In this document: positions 23,442 through 53,349 of the stretch, in pieces
Numbering within the stretch: the stretch's first letter is position 1
Layout: every line of letters starts with the position of its first letter
Assembly (NCBI RefSeq): GCF_007923255.1
Contig: NZ_VOHJ01000004.1
Location: 62,001-126,000, forward strand
DNA from: Vulcaniibacterium thermophilum
GTDB lineage: Bacteria; Pseudomonadota; Gammaproteobacteria; Xanthomonadales; Xanthomonadaceae
DNA length: 64,000 bases
Reading direction: 5' to 3'
The notes under the pieces: model-generated
What the model was told of the DNA's origin: nothing
Database searches by the model: none
Seen by the model: the letters and a program-made list of their open reading frames with translations, nothing else
Program-made: the position numbers and the translations under genes

Positions 23442-25433
23442 TCACCCGAGCACCTCGCGCACCAACGTGGCCAGATGGTCGAAGTAGAGGTCGATGTAGC
23501 TGATTCCGTTGCCGGTGTCGAGCAGGTAGGGATTCATCAATGTGTGGCGCAGGATCAGCAGACGGTCGGCGCCGTCGCGGTCGCCGAAGGTGGCAGGGTC
23601 CAGTCCGAGCGCGCGCGCGGTCCGCTCCATCTCCGCCGCGCCGATCGCCTCGGGGCGCAACGTGGTGGTGGTGCCGAAGAACTGCCTCGACTGCACCGGC
23701 TGGTCCGGCGCGCAGCGCAGCCGCGCGGCGAGCGCGCGCACGAACGCGTTCGTCTGCGCCACGTCGCGGTTGCCGGCGGGGTTGAGCGCCAGACACACCA
23801 GATTGCTGTCGGGCGGATAGGGCACGCGCGCGTTGACGAGCCCGGCCATGCGCTGCGCGAAGCGCTGGGCGGCCTCGTGGAAGGCCTCCGCGGCGAGCAC
23901 CGTCTGCCGCGGCAGCAGGCCGAAGCCGGTGTGGTCGAGCGGCAGCACGCGATGGGTGACGTACACCGCCGCCGCGCTCGCGCCCGCCTTGGAGCCTTCC
24001 AGCACGTAGCGGCCGAGATGCCGGTAGCGCGCCAGGTAGCCGGCGTCCTCGCCGCCGTCGAACACGTAATCCGCCTCCTCGGTCAGCAGCGCCATCGCGC
24101 GGTGGTCGCGGCAGACGAAGGCGCCGGCGCCGTAGGGCAGGTAGCCGAGCTTGTGCGGATCGACGGTGACCGAATCGGCCCCGCCCAAGGCGGCGAACGC
24201 GGCATGCACGTGCGGCTGCGGGAAACCGCGGTACTCCGCGCGCATCTCCTCGCGCGTGCGCAGGCTGCCGTCGGGATTGCGGAACAGGGTGGCGAGATAG
24301 CCGCCCCAGGCGGCATCCACGTGCACCGAGAAGCCCAGCCCGCGCGCGGCCATCGCCTCGCGCGCCGCCACCGCGCGATCGACCGGGTCGATCGTGCCGT
24401 ACTCGGTGGTGCCGAGCACGGCCACCACGGCCAGCACCGGCTGGCGCTCGCGCGCGCAGCGCTCCAGCGCGGCGTCGAGCGCGTCGGCGTCCAGCCGCAT
24501 GCCGCGTTCGGGCAGCAGATGCAGTTGTTCGCTGCCCAGGCCCAGCAGCTTGATGCCCTTGCTCCAGGAATAGTGCGCGGTGATCGGCGCCAGCACGCGC
24601 GGCACGCGCAGCGCGGGATGGCGCGCGAAGAACGCGGTGAGGCCGAGCGTCTCGATGCGTTGCGCCTGCACCCGCCGCCGCCAGCGGCGGCGCTCGTCGG
24701 CCGGCTGCGCGGCCAGCCAGCGCTGCCAGCGCGTCAGCAGCGCGATGCCTTCCGCCGGCGCGAGGTTGAACGCCCGCACCGCGTCCGCGGGCGCGGCGAT
24801 GTCCGGCGCGCCGGCGGCGTGCAGCGCCACCGGGAAGGCCTTCAGCGCCAGCGCGAGCCGCAGCGCCTGGTAGTTGGCCGCGGTGCCGCCGGAGGCGAGG
24901 TGGCCGAACGCGCAGTCCTCGCGCGCCGGATCGTCGGGGAAGCCGAGCATGCGCGCGAGCTGCAGGCCGACCTGCACCTCCAGATCCACCGTCACCGGCG
25001 CGACGTCCTCGCAGACGTTGTTCGGGTTGTACGGCAGCGTCAGCATCTGCGCGGCCAGCCCCGGCAGCAGCAGATCGGACGCCATGTGGCCGATGTAGCG
25101 CGGGCTGTGGAACGGCACCGAGCGCTTGAGCGCGGCCGACAGGCGGTGCAGTTCGTGACGCATGCGCGCCTCGAAGGTCTGGTAGGCCGGATGCTGCGCG
25201 GCGCGGGTGGGAATCGCCGGCGGGTCGTCCGGATGCACGTTGCGGCGCCAGTAGACGTGGTCGCGCAGGAACTCGACCACCAGCTTCTCCAGCAGGCCGT
25301 CGTTCTCGCCGTACGGACCGAGGAAGCAGGCGTCCAGCGTGCGCCGTTCGGTGTCCGGGTCCGGAAAGGCGGCCGACGGCGGACGCGCCGCGGCCTCGGC
25401 CGCCGGCGGGAGAGGAAGGGGCGAGAGGGCCAT
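23442..25433 (-). CDS. PLP-dependent group II decarboxylase, tyrosine-decarboxylase-like
   Basis: A 663-residue pyridoxal-phosphate decarboxylase. The PLP lysine is Lys428 in TVDPHKLGYLPYGAGAF; the cofactor-stacking region is in SVHVDAAWGGYLATLF. Overall plan and length match the long tyrosine decarboxylases of enterococci rather than GadB: FHSPRYIGHMASDLLLPGL, NPNNVCEDVAPVTVDLE, RYVLEGSKAGASAAAVYVTHRVLPL, and a C-terminal LRHTLMNPYLLD. Amine formation consumes protons. An FNR box precedes it. ATG 25433 has GGAGCGCAC in front; an upstream in-frame ATG at 25469 coincides with the predicted transcription start and adds 12 non-family residues, so a leaderless longer form is possible. Substrate is inferred. 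Confidence 0.88.
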   Translation of the reverse strand: MALSPLPLPPAAEAAARPPSAAFPDPDTERRTLDACFLGPYGENDGLLEKLVVEFLRDHVYWRRNVHPDDPPAIPTRAAQHPAYQTFEARMRHELHRLSAALKRSVPFHSPRYIGHMASDLLLPGLAAQMLTLPYNPNNVCEDVAPVTVDLEVQVGLQLARMLGFPDDPAREDCAFGHLASGGTAANYQALRLALALKAFPVALHAAGAPDIAAPADAVRAFNLAPAEGIALLTRWQRWLAAQPADERRRWRRRVQAQRIETLGLTAFFARHPALRVPRVLAPITAHYSWSKGIKLLGLGSEQLHLLPERGMRLDADALDAALERCARERQPVLAVVAVLGTTEYGTIDPVDRAVAAREAMAARGLGFSVHVDAAWGGYLATLFRNPDGSLRTREEMRAEYRGFPQPHVHAAFAALGGADSVTVDPHKLGYLPYGAGAFVCRDHRAMALLTEEADYVFDGGEDAGYLARYRHLGRYVLEGSKAGASAAAVYVTHRVLPLDHTGFGLLPRQTVLAAEAFHEAAQRFAQRMAGLVNARVPYPPDSNLVCLALNPAGNRDVAQTNAFVRALAARLRCAPDQPVQSRQFFGTTTTLRPEAIGAAEMERTARALGLDPATFGDRDGADRLLILRHTLMNPYLLDTGNGISYIDLYFDHLATLVREVLG

Positions 25434-25503
25434 GTGCGCTCCGGGCCGGAACGTCCGGCCGAGGGTCATGGCCTCAGGCTAGGGCGCGCGAGGCGGGCCG
25501 GCC

Positions 25504-25517
25504 TTGATCCGGATCAA
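25504..25517 (-). promoter_or_regulatory. FNR/ANR box of the decarboxylase gene
   Basis: TTGATCCGGATCAA, a perfect site. On the minus strand TAGCCT (25476-25481 in plus coordinates) begins 22 nt from the box, the best -10 of the set; +1 would fall at 25469, exactly on an in-frame ATG. Confidence 0.93.
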
Positions 25518-25930: not shown

Positions 25931-27157
25931 TCATCCCGGTCGTCCGTCGGCGCGCGGCGCCAGATAGATCCGCCCCAGCCGCACGATCCACGGCGCCAGT
26001 GCCACCAGCCAGCCGGCCGCGGACAGCGCTTGCCAGGTCATGCCGTCGTCCGCCAGCTCCGCGCCCAGACGCATCAGCGTCACGCCCTGGATCGCCCAGA
26101 ACGCGTACCACGCCACCTTCGGCATCACCAGCGGCCGGCCGGAGTGGCCCTGGGTGACGCGGGTGACCATCGCGATCAGCACGCTGCCGAAAAAGCCCAC
26201 GAACAGCGCGTGCGCCGGCGCGCGGCCGAGCAGGAACGCGCCGCTGGCGGCGTAGACGAGGCTCTGCCCCGCGTACAGCGCGAACGCCACGGGCAGCCAC
26301 AGCAGGCCGAGGAACAGCACGCGCAGGAGGCCCGGGGCCGCCCCGCGCGGCCACCAGCGCGCCAGCGCCAGCAGCGTCAGCGCGAGCAGGCCCAGATCCG
26401 GCAGCCACAGCCAGGCGTAGCCGTGCACCAGTTCCAGCCCCAGGTGCGCGAGCGCAAGCGCGAGGACCGCGCCCAGCAGCCAGAACGGGCGCCACATCGT
26501 GTAGCCCTGGACCGCGTTGCCGGCGAAGAACGGGAACATGCGGTGGGCGACGGTGAAGTAGATCGGCAGCAGGAAGCCGAAGCTGCCGATCTTGATCGCG
26601 GCGAACGCCCACGACGGCGATGCCCCGAGCAGGAACGCCAGCCACCCGCCCAGCCCGATCAGCCCCAGCCACAACGCCCCGAAGCAGGCGCGCGCGTGCC
26701 AGGTCGCGCCGCGCTCCTGCCACAGCAGCGGAGCCAGCGCCGACAGCGCGGCCAGCCAGCCGGCCAGCGTCATCAGGGTGCCCACCAGCACGCCCGCGTC
26801 CCAGCCCAGCGCGCCCAGCAGCGTGACGATCTGCCCGCCGAACAGGCCGGCGCCGACCGGCACGTAGCGCCAGCGGTCCGGTTCCGGCAGTCCCATCCAG
26901 CGCGGGAACACGGTCAGCAGGAAGCCGAAGATGAAGCTGGCCAGCATCTGGTACTGCATCACGAACGCATGCAGCCAGCCGGCGTAAGGCTCCGGCTGCG
27001 GATAGCCCGCGATCCAGCCGCGCGCGGCGGCCAGCCAGCCGAACCACCACAGCATCGCCAGCAGCACGTTGCTGGCGCCGACGAAGAACATCAGCCGGTG
27101 AGGCGCGGCGGCGAGCAGGCGGGGCGAGAGCGGGCGAGGCGGCGTGGCGGTCTGCAT
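25931..27157 (-). CDS. nnrS: NnrS heme-copper membrane protein (nitrosative stress)
   Basis: A 408-residue polytopic membrane protein with about 12 helices, NnrS family, which relieves nitric-oxide-linked metabolic stress in denitrifiers. Conserved segments: APHRLMFFVGASNVLLAMLWW, WLHAFVMQYQMLASFIFGFLLTVFPRWMG, FTVAHRMFPFFAGNAVQGY, and VTRVTQGHSGRPLVMPKVAW near the end, with histidines that could bind heme or copper. The ATG at 27157 is preferred over one at 27175, because the -10 hexamer GATACT (27165-27170) would start the mRNA at that ATG and no ribosome-binding site is present; the messenger looks leaderless. Followed by sirB2. Confidence 0.93.
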   Translation of the reverse strand: MQTATPPRPLSPRLLAAAPHRLMFFVGASNVLLAMLWWFGWLAAARGWIAGYPQPEPYAGWLHAFVMQYQMLASFIFGFLLTVFPRWMGLPEPDRWRYVPVGAGLFGGQIVTLLGALGWDAGVLVGTLMTLAGWLAALSALAPLLWQERGATWHARACFGALWLGLIGLGGWLAFLLGASPSWAFAAIKIGSFGFLLPIYFTVAHRMFPFFAGNAVQGYTMWRPFWLLGAVLALALAHLGLELVHGYAWLWLPDLGLLALTLLALARWWPRGAAPGLLRVLFLGLLWLPVAFALYAGQSLVYAASGAFLLGRAPAHALFVGFFGSVLIAMVTRVTQGHSGRPLVMPKVAWYAFWAIQGVTLMRLGAELADDGMTWQALSAAGWLVALAPWIVRLGRIYLAPRADGRPG

Positions 27158-27192
27158 GCGCCGCAGTATCCGCATCGCGCGTGCAGGGCACC

Positions 27193-30121: not shown

Positions 30122-30135
30122 TTGACCCAGATCAA
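30122..30135 (-). promoter_or_regulatory. FNR/ANR box of norB
   Basis: TTGACCCAGATCAA (one arm TTGAC). CATGCT, the same hexamer as at nirK, begins 23 nt downstream on the minus strand, giving a leader of about 20 nt to the norB ATG. Confidence 0.88.
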
Positions 30136-30929: not shown

Positions 30930-31682
30930 TCAGCCGCGCAGCACCGGCGCGGCCAGGGCCTCGAGCGCGGCGCGGTCGAGCAGCTCCATCTCGCGACGGT
31001 CCACCCGCAGCAACCCTTCCTGCTGCAGGCGCTTGAGCACACGGCTCACGGTCTCGGGCGCCAGCCGCAGGTAGTTGGCGATGTCGGTGCGCGCCATCGT
31101 GAGCTGGAAGCGGGTGGGCGAGTAGCCGCGCGCGGCCAGCCGGCGCGAGAAGCCGATCAGGAACGCGGCCAGCCGCTGCTCGGCCGACCAGTCGCCCGCC
31201 AGCAGGGCGGCGCGGCCGATGTCGCGGCTGAGCAGGCGGAACAGTTGCTGCTGAAGCCCCGGCACGCGCGCGGCCAGCACCGCGATCTTGGGGAACGAGA
31301 ACCGGCACAGCATCACCGTATCCAGCGCCACCGCATTGCACGGGTACTGCTCGCTGTCGATGGCGCTCAGCCCGATCACCTCGCCCGGCAGGTGGAAGCC
31401 GAGCACGTGCTCGCGCCCCTCGCTGTCGATCACGTAGGTCTTCACCGTGCCGGCGCGCACCGCGGCGATCGCGTCGAACGGATCGCCCTCGCGGAACACG
31501 TGCTCGCCGGCGTGCAGCGGGCCGACGTGTTCGACCAGCACGTGCAGATCGCGCAGCGCCGACTTGTCCATGCCCTGCGACAGGCAGGCCTGCGAGAACG
31601 CGCAGGTCGAGCAGAAATGCAGCGCATCGCCGTCGTCCGGCAGCGTGCGCGCATCGGTACGCGGAAAGGCCGCGGTGTTCAC
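30930..31682 (-). CDS. anr: Fnr/Anr oxygen-sensing transcriptional regulator
   Basis: A 250-residue CRP/FNR-family regulator that loses DNA binding when O2 breaks its [4Fe-4S] cluster. Cluster cysteines: C-x2-C-x5-C in HFCSTCAFSQACLSQG at the N-terminus plus Cys in SEQYPCNAVAL, the FNR/Anr pattern. A cyclic-nucleotide-like beta-roll (about 50-150) is followed by a helix-turn-helix with TRTDIANYLRLAPETVSRVLKRL; E-x2-S-R is the FNR recognition helix that reads TTGAT. GTG 31682 is preferred: GGAGG stands 8 nt before it, whereas an upstream GTG at 31715 has no such site. It lies 22 nt after hemN, so it is probably read from the hemN FNR-box promoter. Confidence 0.95.
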   Translation of the reverse strand: MNTAAFPRTDARTLPDDGDALHFCSTCAFSQACLSQGMDKSALRDLHVLVEHVGPLHAGEHVFREGDPFDAIAAVRAGTVKTYVIDSEGREHVLGFHLPGEVIGLSAIDSEQYPCNAVALDTVMLCRFSFPKIAVLAARVPGLQQQLFRLLSRDIGRAALLAGDWSAEQRLAAFLIGFSRRLAARGYSPTRFQLTMARTDIANYLRLAPETVSRVLKRLQQEGLLRVDRREMELLDRAALEALAAPVLRG

Positions 31683-31704: not shown

Positions 31705-33105
31705 TCAGATGGCACGCGAGAACCGGGGCGTGGCGAGTTCCGCGGGCTGCTCGAGGTAGCGGTCGAAGCACATGGCGATGTTACGCAACAGCAGGCGGCC
31801 TGCGGGCGTCACCGCGATCCGTTCCGGCTCCCGGCGCACCAGGCCGTCCTCGGCCAGCGGCGCCAGTTTGTCCAGCGCGCCGGCGAAGTAGCGGTCGAAA
31901 TCGATCGCATAGCGCCGCTCGAGCGCGCGCACCGGGATCTCGCCCTGGCACATCAGGGTCTGGATCAGGTCGGCGCGCAACTGGTCGTCCTCGCTCAGGC
32001 GCAGGCCGCGGAACACCGGCAGGCGGCCTTCGTCGAGCGCGGCCTGCCAGCCCGGCAGATCGCGGTGGTTCTGGCTGAAGCTGTCGCCGATGTGGCTGAT
32101 CGCGCTGACGCCGAAACCGATCAGGTCGCTGTCGGCGTGCGTGGTGTAGCCCATGAAGTTGCGGTGCAGCCCGCCGCGTGCCTGCGCCTGGGCGAGATCG
32201 TCGTCGGGCAGGGCGAAGTGGTCCATGCCGATGTAGACGTAGCCCGCTGCGGTGAGCTTCTCGATCGCCAGCCGCAGCAGCGCCAGCTTGGTCGCCGCGT
32301 CCGGAAGGTCGGCCGCCTCGATCTGCCGCTGCGGGCGGAACAGGTGCGGCATGTGCGCGTAGCTGTAGATCGCCAGCCGGTCGGGGCGGATCGCCACCAC
32401 CTCGTCGAGCGTGCGCCCGAACCCGTCCAGCGTCTGCTTCGGCAGACCGTAGATCAGGTCGATGTTCACCGAGCGGAAGCCGTTGGCGCGGCAGGCGTCC
32501 ACCACCGCGCGGGTCTGCTCGATGCTCTGGATGCGGTTGACCGCCGCCTGCACCGCCGGGTCGAAGTCCTGCACGCCCAGGCTGGCGCGGTTGAAGCCGA
32601 TCGCCGCCAGTTCCGCCACCGCCTCCGGCGTGATGAAGCGCGGGTCCAGCTCGATCGAGATGTCGCGCTCGCGGCTTTCGGCGAAGTGGAAGTGGCTGCG
32701 CAGGGTATCGACCACCTCGCGCAGTTGCGCGGCGGTGAGGAAGTTCGGCGTGCCGCCGCCGAAGTGGAGCTGGATCACCTCGCGGTCGCGGTCGAACAGC
32801 GGCGCCATCAGTGCGATCTCGCGGTACAACCGGGCCAGATACGGCTCCGAGCGCGACTTGTCGCGCGTGATGACGCGGTTGCAGCCGCAGTAGAAGCAGG
32901 GGCTCTCGCAGAACGGCACGTGCACGTACAGCGACAGCCGGCGCGGGATCGGATCGCCGTTGCTGGCGCGCGCGGCTTCCTTGAGCTGCGCCTCGCCGAA
33001 ACCGGCCTGGAACTGCGGCGCGGTCGGGTACGACGTGTAGCGCGGACCGGGGCGGTCGTAACGCGTCAGCAGGGCCGGATCGAGCTGGAGCGATGACGTG
33101 TGCAT
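31705..33105 (-). CDS. hemN: Oxygen-independent coproporphyrinogen III dehydrogenase
   Basis: A 466-residue radical-SAM enzyme for the anaerobic step coproporphyrinogen III to protoporphyrinogen IX in heme synthesis. The [4Fe-4S]-SAM site is VPFCESPCFYCGCNRV (CxxxCxxC) near residue 60; further marks are the N-terminal RYDRPGPRYTSYPTAPQF, LHFGGGTPNFL, SIELDPRF, GVQDFDPAVQAAVNRIQ and IDLIYGLPKQT. Length is that of true HemN rather than shorter HemW. The -10 TACCCT (33113-33118) places the mRNA start at the ATG, with no ribosome-binding site, so the message is probably leaderless. Heme demand for cbb3, NirK cytochrome and NorB explains the grouping. Confidence 0.96.
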   Translation of the reverse strand: MHTSSLQLDPALLTRYDRPGPRYTSYPTAPQFQAGFGEAQLKEAARASNGDPIPRRLSLYVHVPFCESPCFYCGCNRVITRDKSRSEPYLARLYREIALMAPLFDRDREVIQLHFGGGTPNFLTAAQLREVVDTLRSHFHFAESRERDISIELDPRFITPEAVAELAAIGFNRASLGVQDFDPAVQAAVNRIQSIEQTRAVVDACRANGFRSVNIDLIYGLPKQTLDGFGRTLDEVVAIRPDRLAIYSYAHMPHLFRPQRQIEAADLPDAATKLALLRLAIEKLTAAGYVYIGMDHFALPDDDLAQAQARGGLHRNFMGYTTHADSDLIGFGVSAISHIGDSFSQNHRDLPGWQAALDEGRLPVFRGLRLSEDDQLRADLIQTLMCQGEIPVRALERRYAIDFDRYFAGALDKLAPLAEDGLVRREPERIAVTPAGRLLLRNIAMCFDRYLEQPAELATPRFSRAI

Positions 33106-33140
33106 GGCGCGCAGGGTAGGGGCGGGCCCGCGCGCACGTA

Positions 33141-33154
33141 TTGACCTGGATCAA
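33141..33154. promoter_or_regulatory. FNR/ANR box of hemN-anr
   Basis: TTGACCTGGATCAA (one arm TTGAC). Toward hemN, TACCCT begins 22 nt downstream and +1 falls at the hemN ATG. Toward the divergent nitroreductase gene no -10 stands at that distance; that gene has its own TAAGAT hexamer at 33204-33209. Confidence 0.9.
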
Positions 33155-33215
33155 GTGCGTGCCACCGCACCGCGCGCGGGGCGAAACCGCGCACGGCATT
33201 CATTAAGATCGTCGC

Positions 33216-42472: not shown

Positions 42473-42502
42473 TTGAGCCTGCGCGCGGCGATTCGCTAGC
42501 CT
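42473..42502 (+). promoter_or_regulatory. dapB promoter (sigma-70 type)
   Basis: TTGAGC (42473-42478), an 18-nt spacer and TAGCCT (42497-42502). The transcript would start at or within a base of the dapB ATG at 42509, and no ribosome-binding site stands before that ATG, so dapB may be leaderless. Confidence 0.6.
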
Positions 42503-53195: not shown

Positions 53196-53349
53196 GCGGC
53201 ACCTCCCGATCGGAAGGCGCGAGGGTGCGCGCAGCGCCGGCGGGCAGGGGGCGCCAGGTGACGGCGAGCGGCGGCGCGGTGACGAGCCGCGGGCGCGCGG
53301 GGACGAATCGCGGACGGGCCGGCGCCCGCCGGCGCCTAGAATGCGCGCG

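Follow-up and report, generated by a model that had tools for sequence, protein, structure and literature searches.

The hemN gene of Vulcaniibacterium thermophilum is very probably transcribed as a leaderless messenger from a class II FNR promoter, with promoter and ATG conserved as one unit and with a message that probably extends into an fnr-type gene whose product would feed back on it. We describe this gene in the window, by which we mean the whole stretch of 64,000 nucleotides that was analysed. Upstream of hemN, the minus strand carries in this order an FNR/Anr-type box, 22 nt, the hexamer TACCCT, 7 nt and the ATG, the A of which lies at position 33105 (Table 1). The box centre is 42.5 nt away from this A, and the centres of the box and of the −10 hexamer are 32 nt apart, a class II spacing that places the predicted transcription start directly at the ATG. 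Class II FNR/Anr-activated promoters have their box at −41.5, where it overlaps the −35 region. As at ordinary sites of this class, the gap between the box and the −10 hexamer amounts to 21-22 nt; unlike at those sites, it is the start codon that occupies the predicted transcription start of hemN, and operator, promoter and start share one ruler. A Shine-Dalgarno (SD) sequence was looked for upstream of position 33105 and none was seen. The original prediction of an FNR box about 42 nt before the hemN ATG, of TACCCT-N7-ATG and of a missing ribosome-binding site was thereby borne out. Furthermore, the start codon is sound, since it is the first in-frame start after the stop in the hemN reading frame, and the only plausible one, and since the N-terminus of the product matches that of E. 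coli HemN. Indeed, the Radical SAM and HemN_C domains span the full product, and its residues 5-465 align with residues 5-456 of the E. coli protein (1OLT; E 1.3e-135).

Table 1. Positions in the window of the genes, boxes and hexamers discussed in the text
Feature	Position	Strand	Details
PLP-dependent decarboxylase, upstream start predicted leaderless	23442-25469	−	alternative start 25433
Decarboxylase FNR box	25504-25517		centre 41.5 nt before 25469
Decarboxylase −10 hexamer TAGCCT	25476-25481	−	N6 to ATG
nnrS from second ATG, predicted leaderless	25931-27157	−	judged by layout; 10 of 22 loci with same spacing at relaxed threshold
nnrS FNR-type box CTGATCCAGATCAA	27193-27206		centre 42.5 nt before ATG 27157
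nnrS −10 hexamer GATACT	27165-27170	−	GATACT-N7-ATG
norB FNR box	30122-30135		centre 61.5 nt before ATG 30067; GGAGGA before ATG; leadered contrast case
fnr/anr-type (CRP/FNR-family) regulator gene, downstream of hemN	30930-31682	−	GTG start behind GGAGG
hemN, oxygen-independent coproporphyrinogen III oxidase, 466 aa	31705-33105	−	Pfam Radical_SAM and HemN_C; 1OLT
Predicted hemN transcription start	33105-33106	−	at A of ATG or 1 nt before; from class II FNR/−10 spacing
hemN −10 hexamer TACCCT	33113-33118	−	class II position: 22 nt past box, N7 to ATG
FNR/Anr-type box TTGATCCAGGTCAA of hemN promoter	33141-33154 (centre 33147.5)		sequence as read on minus strand; motif match and clade spacing
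Nitroreductase −10 hexamer TAAGAT	33204-33209	+	before ATG 33216
dapB −10 hexamer TAGCCT	42497-42502	+	before ATG 42509; no FNR box
LytTR-gene −10 hexamer TAGAAT	53337-53342	+	before ATG 53350

The layout recurs in relatives. A scan of genome contigs yielded 593 hemN loci, and the best 80 of these together with the window make up the 81 rows to which all hemN counts below refer. In a tree, 44 of the 81 rows form one clade with a support of 100/99; the same 44 rows had been grouped by eye from titles and similarity after the spacings were seen, and the tree was built afterwards. Where a family is named, the members of the clade are Lysobacteraceae (Xanthomonadaceae) and Rhodanobacteraceae, and some rows have no stated family. 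Among the matches listed for the best 80 loci, the closest relatives of the present hemN are Lysobacter species. A box 40.5-43.5 nt before an in-frame ATG was found in 41 of the 44 clade rows versus 2 of the 37 rows outside (Fisher 9e-17, computed over rows that are not independent). All 41 clade rows scored as locked read ATG, and the two outside rows that pass the spacing rule are L048 and L074, the latter with GTG. The rule demands 8 of 10 matches in the box and lets every start qualify that is in frame and ahead of the conserved RYTSYP motif; this slightly favours the lock, and the sliding control was equally free: when a 4-nt interval was slid over the region 20-100 nt before the hemN start, every other position gave 0-5 rows. 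When the 120 nt upstream of hemN were shuffled 300 times, 0.02 rows were locked on average and never more than 1. The hemN spacing is beyond chance, given how sharply the clade differs in it from the rows outside and how nearly locked rows vanish after shuffling. A geometry so locked to the ATG in the clade supports the leaderless hemN message that had been predicted from the window.

Three clade rows, L026, L031 and L040, lack a box at 8 of 10 matches; a weaker box with the same spacing could be read by eye in L040, and no box is present in L026 and L031. In a MAG titled Lysobacterales (L052), which was placed outside the clade, the hemN box lies at 71.5 nt. Over the 43 locked rows (41 inside and 2 outside the clade), hexamer positions two (A) and six (T) are conserved at 86% each, and the interval between box and ATG is otherwise mostly weakly conserved. 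SD-like motifs occur in 2 of these 43 rows versus 23 of the 37 non-clade rows, with L048 and L074 counted in both groups. The hemN gene of other Gammaproteobacteria and Betaproteobacteria encodes the same protein and often has a box (an FNR-like box within the searched region of 23 of the 37 outside rows), but there the box is farther from the ATG, mostly at 60-95 nt (18 of 26 box-ATG distances). A C at −1, which 93% of the 43 locked rows share, was considered as an initiator signal and rejected, as it also precedes 95 of 175 SD-led and 15 of 25 TA-led starts.

The gene that begins 22 nt past the hemN stop codon encodes a regulator in which the motif C-x2-C-x5-C is accompanied by another cysteine and by ETVSR in the recognition helix. 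This combination of cysteines and recognition helix we take to be the FNR pattern. In 27 of the 44 loci of the clade, a homologue of this regulator lies next to hemN and points the same way, at a gap of 16-61 nt, and none was found in the retrieved flanking DNA of the remaining 17. Outside the clade, a regulator homologue occurs at 8 of the 37 loci, in 6 of them on the strand of hemN, at distances of 65-939 nt. Two further CRP/FNR-family proteins are encoded in the genome, on contig 9 (L218) and on contig 56 (L219). The former combines C-x2-C-x5-C with ETVSR, and the latter lacks one or more of these cysteines. The [4Fe-4S] cysteine pattern expected of an FNR-type regulator is encoded twice in this genome, next to hemN and on contig 9.

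We propose that, at low oxygen, an FNR/Anr-type [4Fe-4S] regulator would bind the box and activate RNA polymerase at the class II promoter. With the −10 hexamer positioned 6-7 nt before the ATG, transcription would start at the AUG itself or no more than about 2 nt from it, and the resulting hemN mRNA would be leaderless. In that case, 70S ribosomes should initiate on the 5′ AUG, with no need for SD pairing; such SD-independent translation of hemN would follow from the layout. In the Xanthomonadaceae and Rhodanobacteraceae, promoter and start codon form one conserved unit. The hemN message probably runs on into the downstream fnr-type gene, which has its own SD sequence, so that the regulator would act back on its own expression and a single message would start translation in two ways. 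A bolder extension, which we regard as rather unlikely, is that FNR operator, promoter and hemN start have formed a fixed module of about 50 nt since the ancestor of Xanthomonadaceae and Rhodanobacteraceae; with the enzyme translated leaderless by 70S ribosomes and the regulator SD-led, the ratio of enzyme to regulator would track the ribosome pool when cells are starved for oxygen.

The same layout had been claimed for nnrS. This holds for the second ATG of this gene, with its box at 42.5 nt and GATACT-N7 before it, and fails for the first ATG (27175), which is located 24.5 nt from the box centre. For comparison, 22 nnrS loci with at least 46% identity were taken from genomes of the order, and 8 distant homologues were left out. 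At the hemN threshold of 8 of 10 matches, 8 of the 22 loci were locked; the threshold was then lowered to 7 of 10, whereupon 10 of the 22 had a box 41.5-42.5 nt from an ATG (nine loci) or a GTG (one). Nine of the other loci have a box, with a start at 59.5-80.5 nt in 8 of these, and 3 are without a box. At the decarboxylase gene, the expected TAGCCT-N6-ATG was found at the upstream start together with a box centred 41.5 nt before it, and the second start at 25433, which has GGAG before it, is a possible alternative. A start at 41.5 nt was seen in only the window gene and L196 among 23 decarboxylase loci, and at most other loci the nearest in-frame starts lie farther in.

For norB, no listed start is found 40-44 nt from the box in any of 24 loci; in 12 of the 24 a box lies no more than 130 nt away, and the probable start is then at 59.5-96.5 nt. 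The leaders predicted for norB, a COX1-type oxidase, an SDR and others measure at least about 20 nt, and most of them include an SD-like sequence. The boxes that lie 60.5-61.5 nt from the ATG (genes at 2605, 10085, 15873 and 30067) could be thought to represent class I FNR sites with leaderless messages. This reading was rejected: before each gene, a hexamer that could serve as −10 occupies the class II position and is followed by a leader of about 20 nt, mostly with an SD-like sequence, and for this reason we read the four genes as leadered.

The leaderless signature was also counted irrespective of FNR boxes. The genome measures 3.08 Mb in 80 contigs, and the sample comprised 459 kb (71% G+C), composed of the window and 20 further stretches, in which a simple codon-usage caller recognized 382 genes, 354 of which were used. 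TANNNT-N6/7-ATG was found at 25 of 685 ATG candidates (20 with N6 and 5 with N7), compared with a mean of 4.4 and a maximum of 13 over 500 shuffles. The fifteen spacings of 8-22 nt before an ATG gave 9 occurrences of TANNNT in total, and spacings of 28, 29 and 32 gave 9, 7 and 9, respectively. Before GTG or TTG, TANNNT-N6/7 was found at 1 of 1139 candidates. The signature is carried by 24 of the 354 sampled genes (7%), in agreement with the suggestion that leaderless messages are common in this organism. Hexamers and spacings at the nitroreductase, dapB and LytTR genes likewise proved to be as claimed. The LytTR gene has two ATGs (53194 and 53350), each with a TANNNT at N6 or N7. At dapB, TANNNT stands at N6/7 in 11 of 13 same-family loci, several of which share one genus, and at N9 in one. 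As dapB keeps it, conservation of the leaderless layout extends beyond the FNR genes. Since, in addition, norB and others with FNR boxes have leaders, leaderless messages, as predicted from layout, are frequent without being specific to anaerobic genes.

The spacing between hexamer and ATG was then counted family-wide in 149 related genomes with a pattern that is independent of gene calls (FNR box, 21-22 nt, NANNNT, then ATG). The leaderless spacing, with the ATG after 6-7 nt, gave 186 matches in 113 genomes; a short leader, with the ATG after 13-14 nt, gave 24 matches in 21 genomes; and a leader of about 20 nt, with the ATG after 26-27 nt, gave 159 matches in 88 genomes. The reversed control pattern gave 1 match per search. 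Judging from the sequence evidence, leaders thus come mainly in two states, either absent or at least about 20 nt long, the long ones usually with an SD-like sequence, and with few in between. When 30 loci with the leaderless spacing were examined, 19 were hemN, 1 was nnrS, 8 were other frames of at least 80 aa and 2 were short. A DUF2946 protein (L110) is among the other frames with an FNR box and the leaderless layout. Another of these frames, from one genome, encodes a homologue of HemF, the oxygen-dependent coproporphyrinogen oxidase (L280:595-1503), likewise behind an FNR box with the leaderless layout. Unfiltered ATG distances after FNR boxes show only a modest excess at 40.5-43.5 nt, with 24 of the first 150 rows of a longer list; a larger ATG peak at 33.5 nt, given as 24 of the same 150 rows, was discarded, as we read these ATGs as parts of NATGNT −10 hexamers and not as starts.

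Conceivably, the hemN start is misread or transcription comes from a promoter further upstream, in which case hemN would have an ordinary leader and the spacing would just reflect how compact the intergenic region is. The stretch between hemN and the divergent nitroreductase gene indeed measures only 110 nt here, and an additional upstream promoter may give a leadered hemN transcript. However, the ATG is the first in-frame candidate and agrees with the N-terminus of E. coli HemN, 41 of the 43 locked rows are without an SD-like motif, and the spacing is kept although no homologue of the nitroreductase (E 1e-15) was found in the retrieved DNA of any of the other 43 clade loci, which also led us to reject the divergent gene as the cause of the compact region. 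We consider an ordinary hemN leader highly improbable. Another reading concerns the usefulness of the layout and is compatible with a leaderless hemN message from a class II FNR promoter, which remains our best explanation. The layout could be a neutral relic, in which a class II promoter was fused once to a start codon and any later change in spacing would break either activation or initiation. This would fit with a layout carried by one clade of the hemN tree and with the rarity of leader spacings from a few to about 15 nt, so that intermediates may be unfit. We give such a relic a little less than an even chance; it and a useful leaderless state fit the data equally well.

A further possibility is that the FNR regulon is selectively leaderless, as a dedicated anaerobic class in which translation is freed from SD pairing when oxygen is limited. 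Judged by layout, 4 of the 12 FNR-box genes looked at here are leaderless, namely hemN, nnrS, the decarboxylase gene and, on contig 35, the gene for a 137-aa protein that has no match in Pfam; among the genes outside this set whose upstream gap is free, the figure is about 20 of 263 (Fisher p 0.014), and both hemN and nnrS keep the layout across species. The 12 genes represent 11 of 13 strict boxes plus nnrS with its weaker box, the other two boxes being read as lying inside coding frames, and the background of 263 is an approximate figure, obtained as 273 minus about 10 FNR-box genes. With only strict boxes and TANNNT, however, the count becomes 3 of 11 and p rises to 0.055. Moreover, none of 24 norB loci has a start 40-44 nt from a box, the family-wide search gave 159 matches with a leadered spacing, and dapB, which is not anaerobic, keeps the leaderless layout as well. 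A dedicated anaerobic class is in our opinion unlikely. Of the original prediction that anaerobic leaderless messages form a subset, the four leaderless layouts among the FNR-box genes stand, but the enrichment is marginal and norB and others are leadered; a special anaerobic subset, as judged from layouts, is not established.

Leaderless mRNAs have reportedly been detected in Xanthomonas by dRNA-seq (Schmidtke and colleagues, in 2012). In the sections of Zheng et al. 2011 that bear on this issue (PMC3160421), leaderless (TA-led) genes are predicted from TANNNT signals. According to the same sections, gammaproteobacterial leaderless genes belong mostly to Xanthomonadales and Legionellales, and leaderless genes have a share of 3.0-5.7% in 15 of 239 gammaproteobacterial genomes. 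Leaderless genes in Xanthomonadales are thus already predicted in that source. The genes described here resemble those TA-led genes in having TANNNT about 12 nt before the start and no SD sequence. Unlike the sections of PMC3160421 referred to, the present analysis treats an FNR promoter, hemN and conservation at a single gene, and its estimate of 24 of 354 genes was obtained by a different, cruder method. What is new is the deep conservation of the layout at one regulated gene, together with the hemN-fnr context. No report of a leaderless FNR-controlled hemN was found in the titles and abstract openings covered by our search, outside of which most of the subscription literature lies. Passages of two papers (PMC4929434, PMC5230787) state that translation of leaderless mRNA continues under kasugamycin, and 70S initiation on leaderless mRNA is reviewed in PMC9031893, where the terms FNR and anaerob do not occur in the parts of the text available.

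With hemN, a named, regulated and easily assayed candidate leaderless gene is at hand in a gammaproteobacterial group. It comes with built-in controls, namely the leadered hemN outside the clade and the leadered norB under the same kind of box. Given this candidate, its natural controls and the two leader states, the reason why a gene stays leaderless becomes directly testable.

Two small proteins, encoded on contig 35 (L125:15917-16330) and at L266:1549-1971, are alike by eye; both have a hydrophobic stretch at the N-terminus and match no Pfam family, and each of their genes has an FNR box and the leaderless layout. Promoter sequences resembling that of L266 recur in several of the family-wide matches with the leaderless spacing. 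Lastly, the window contains 20 FNR-like boxes with at most 2 mismatches, versus 3.4 expected. Fifteen of the 20 lie before position 33200, some of them upstream of the genes for the COX1-type oxidase, a Usp protein, the SDR, norB, nnrS, the decarboxylase and hemN, and positions 1-33200 of the window are perhaps an anaerobic or denitrification island.
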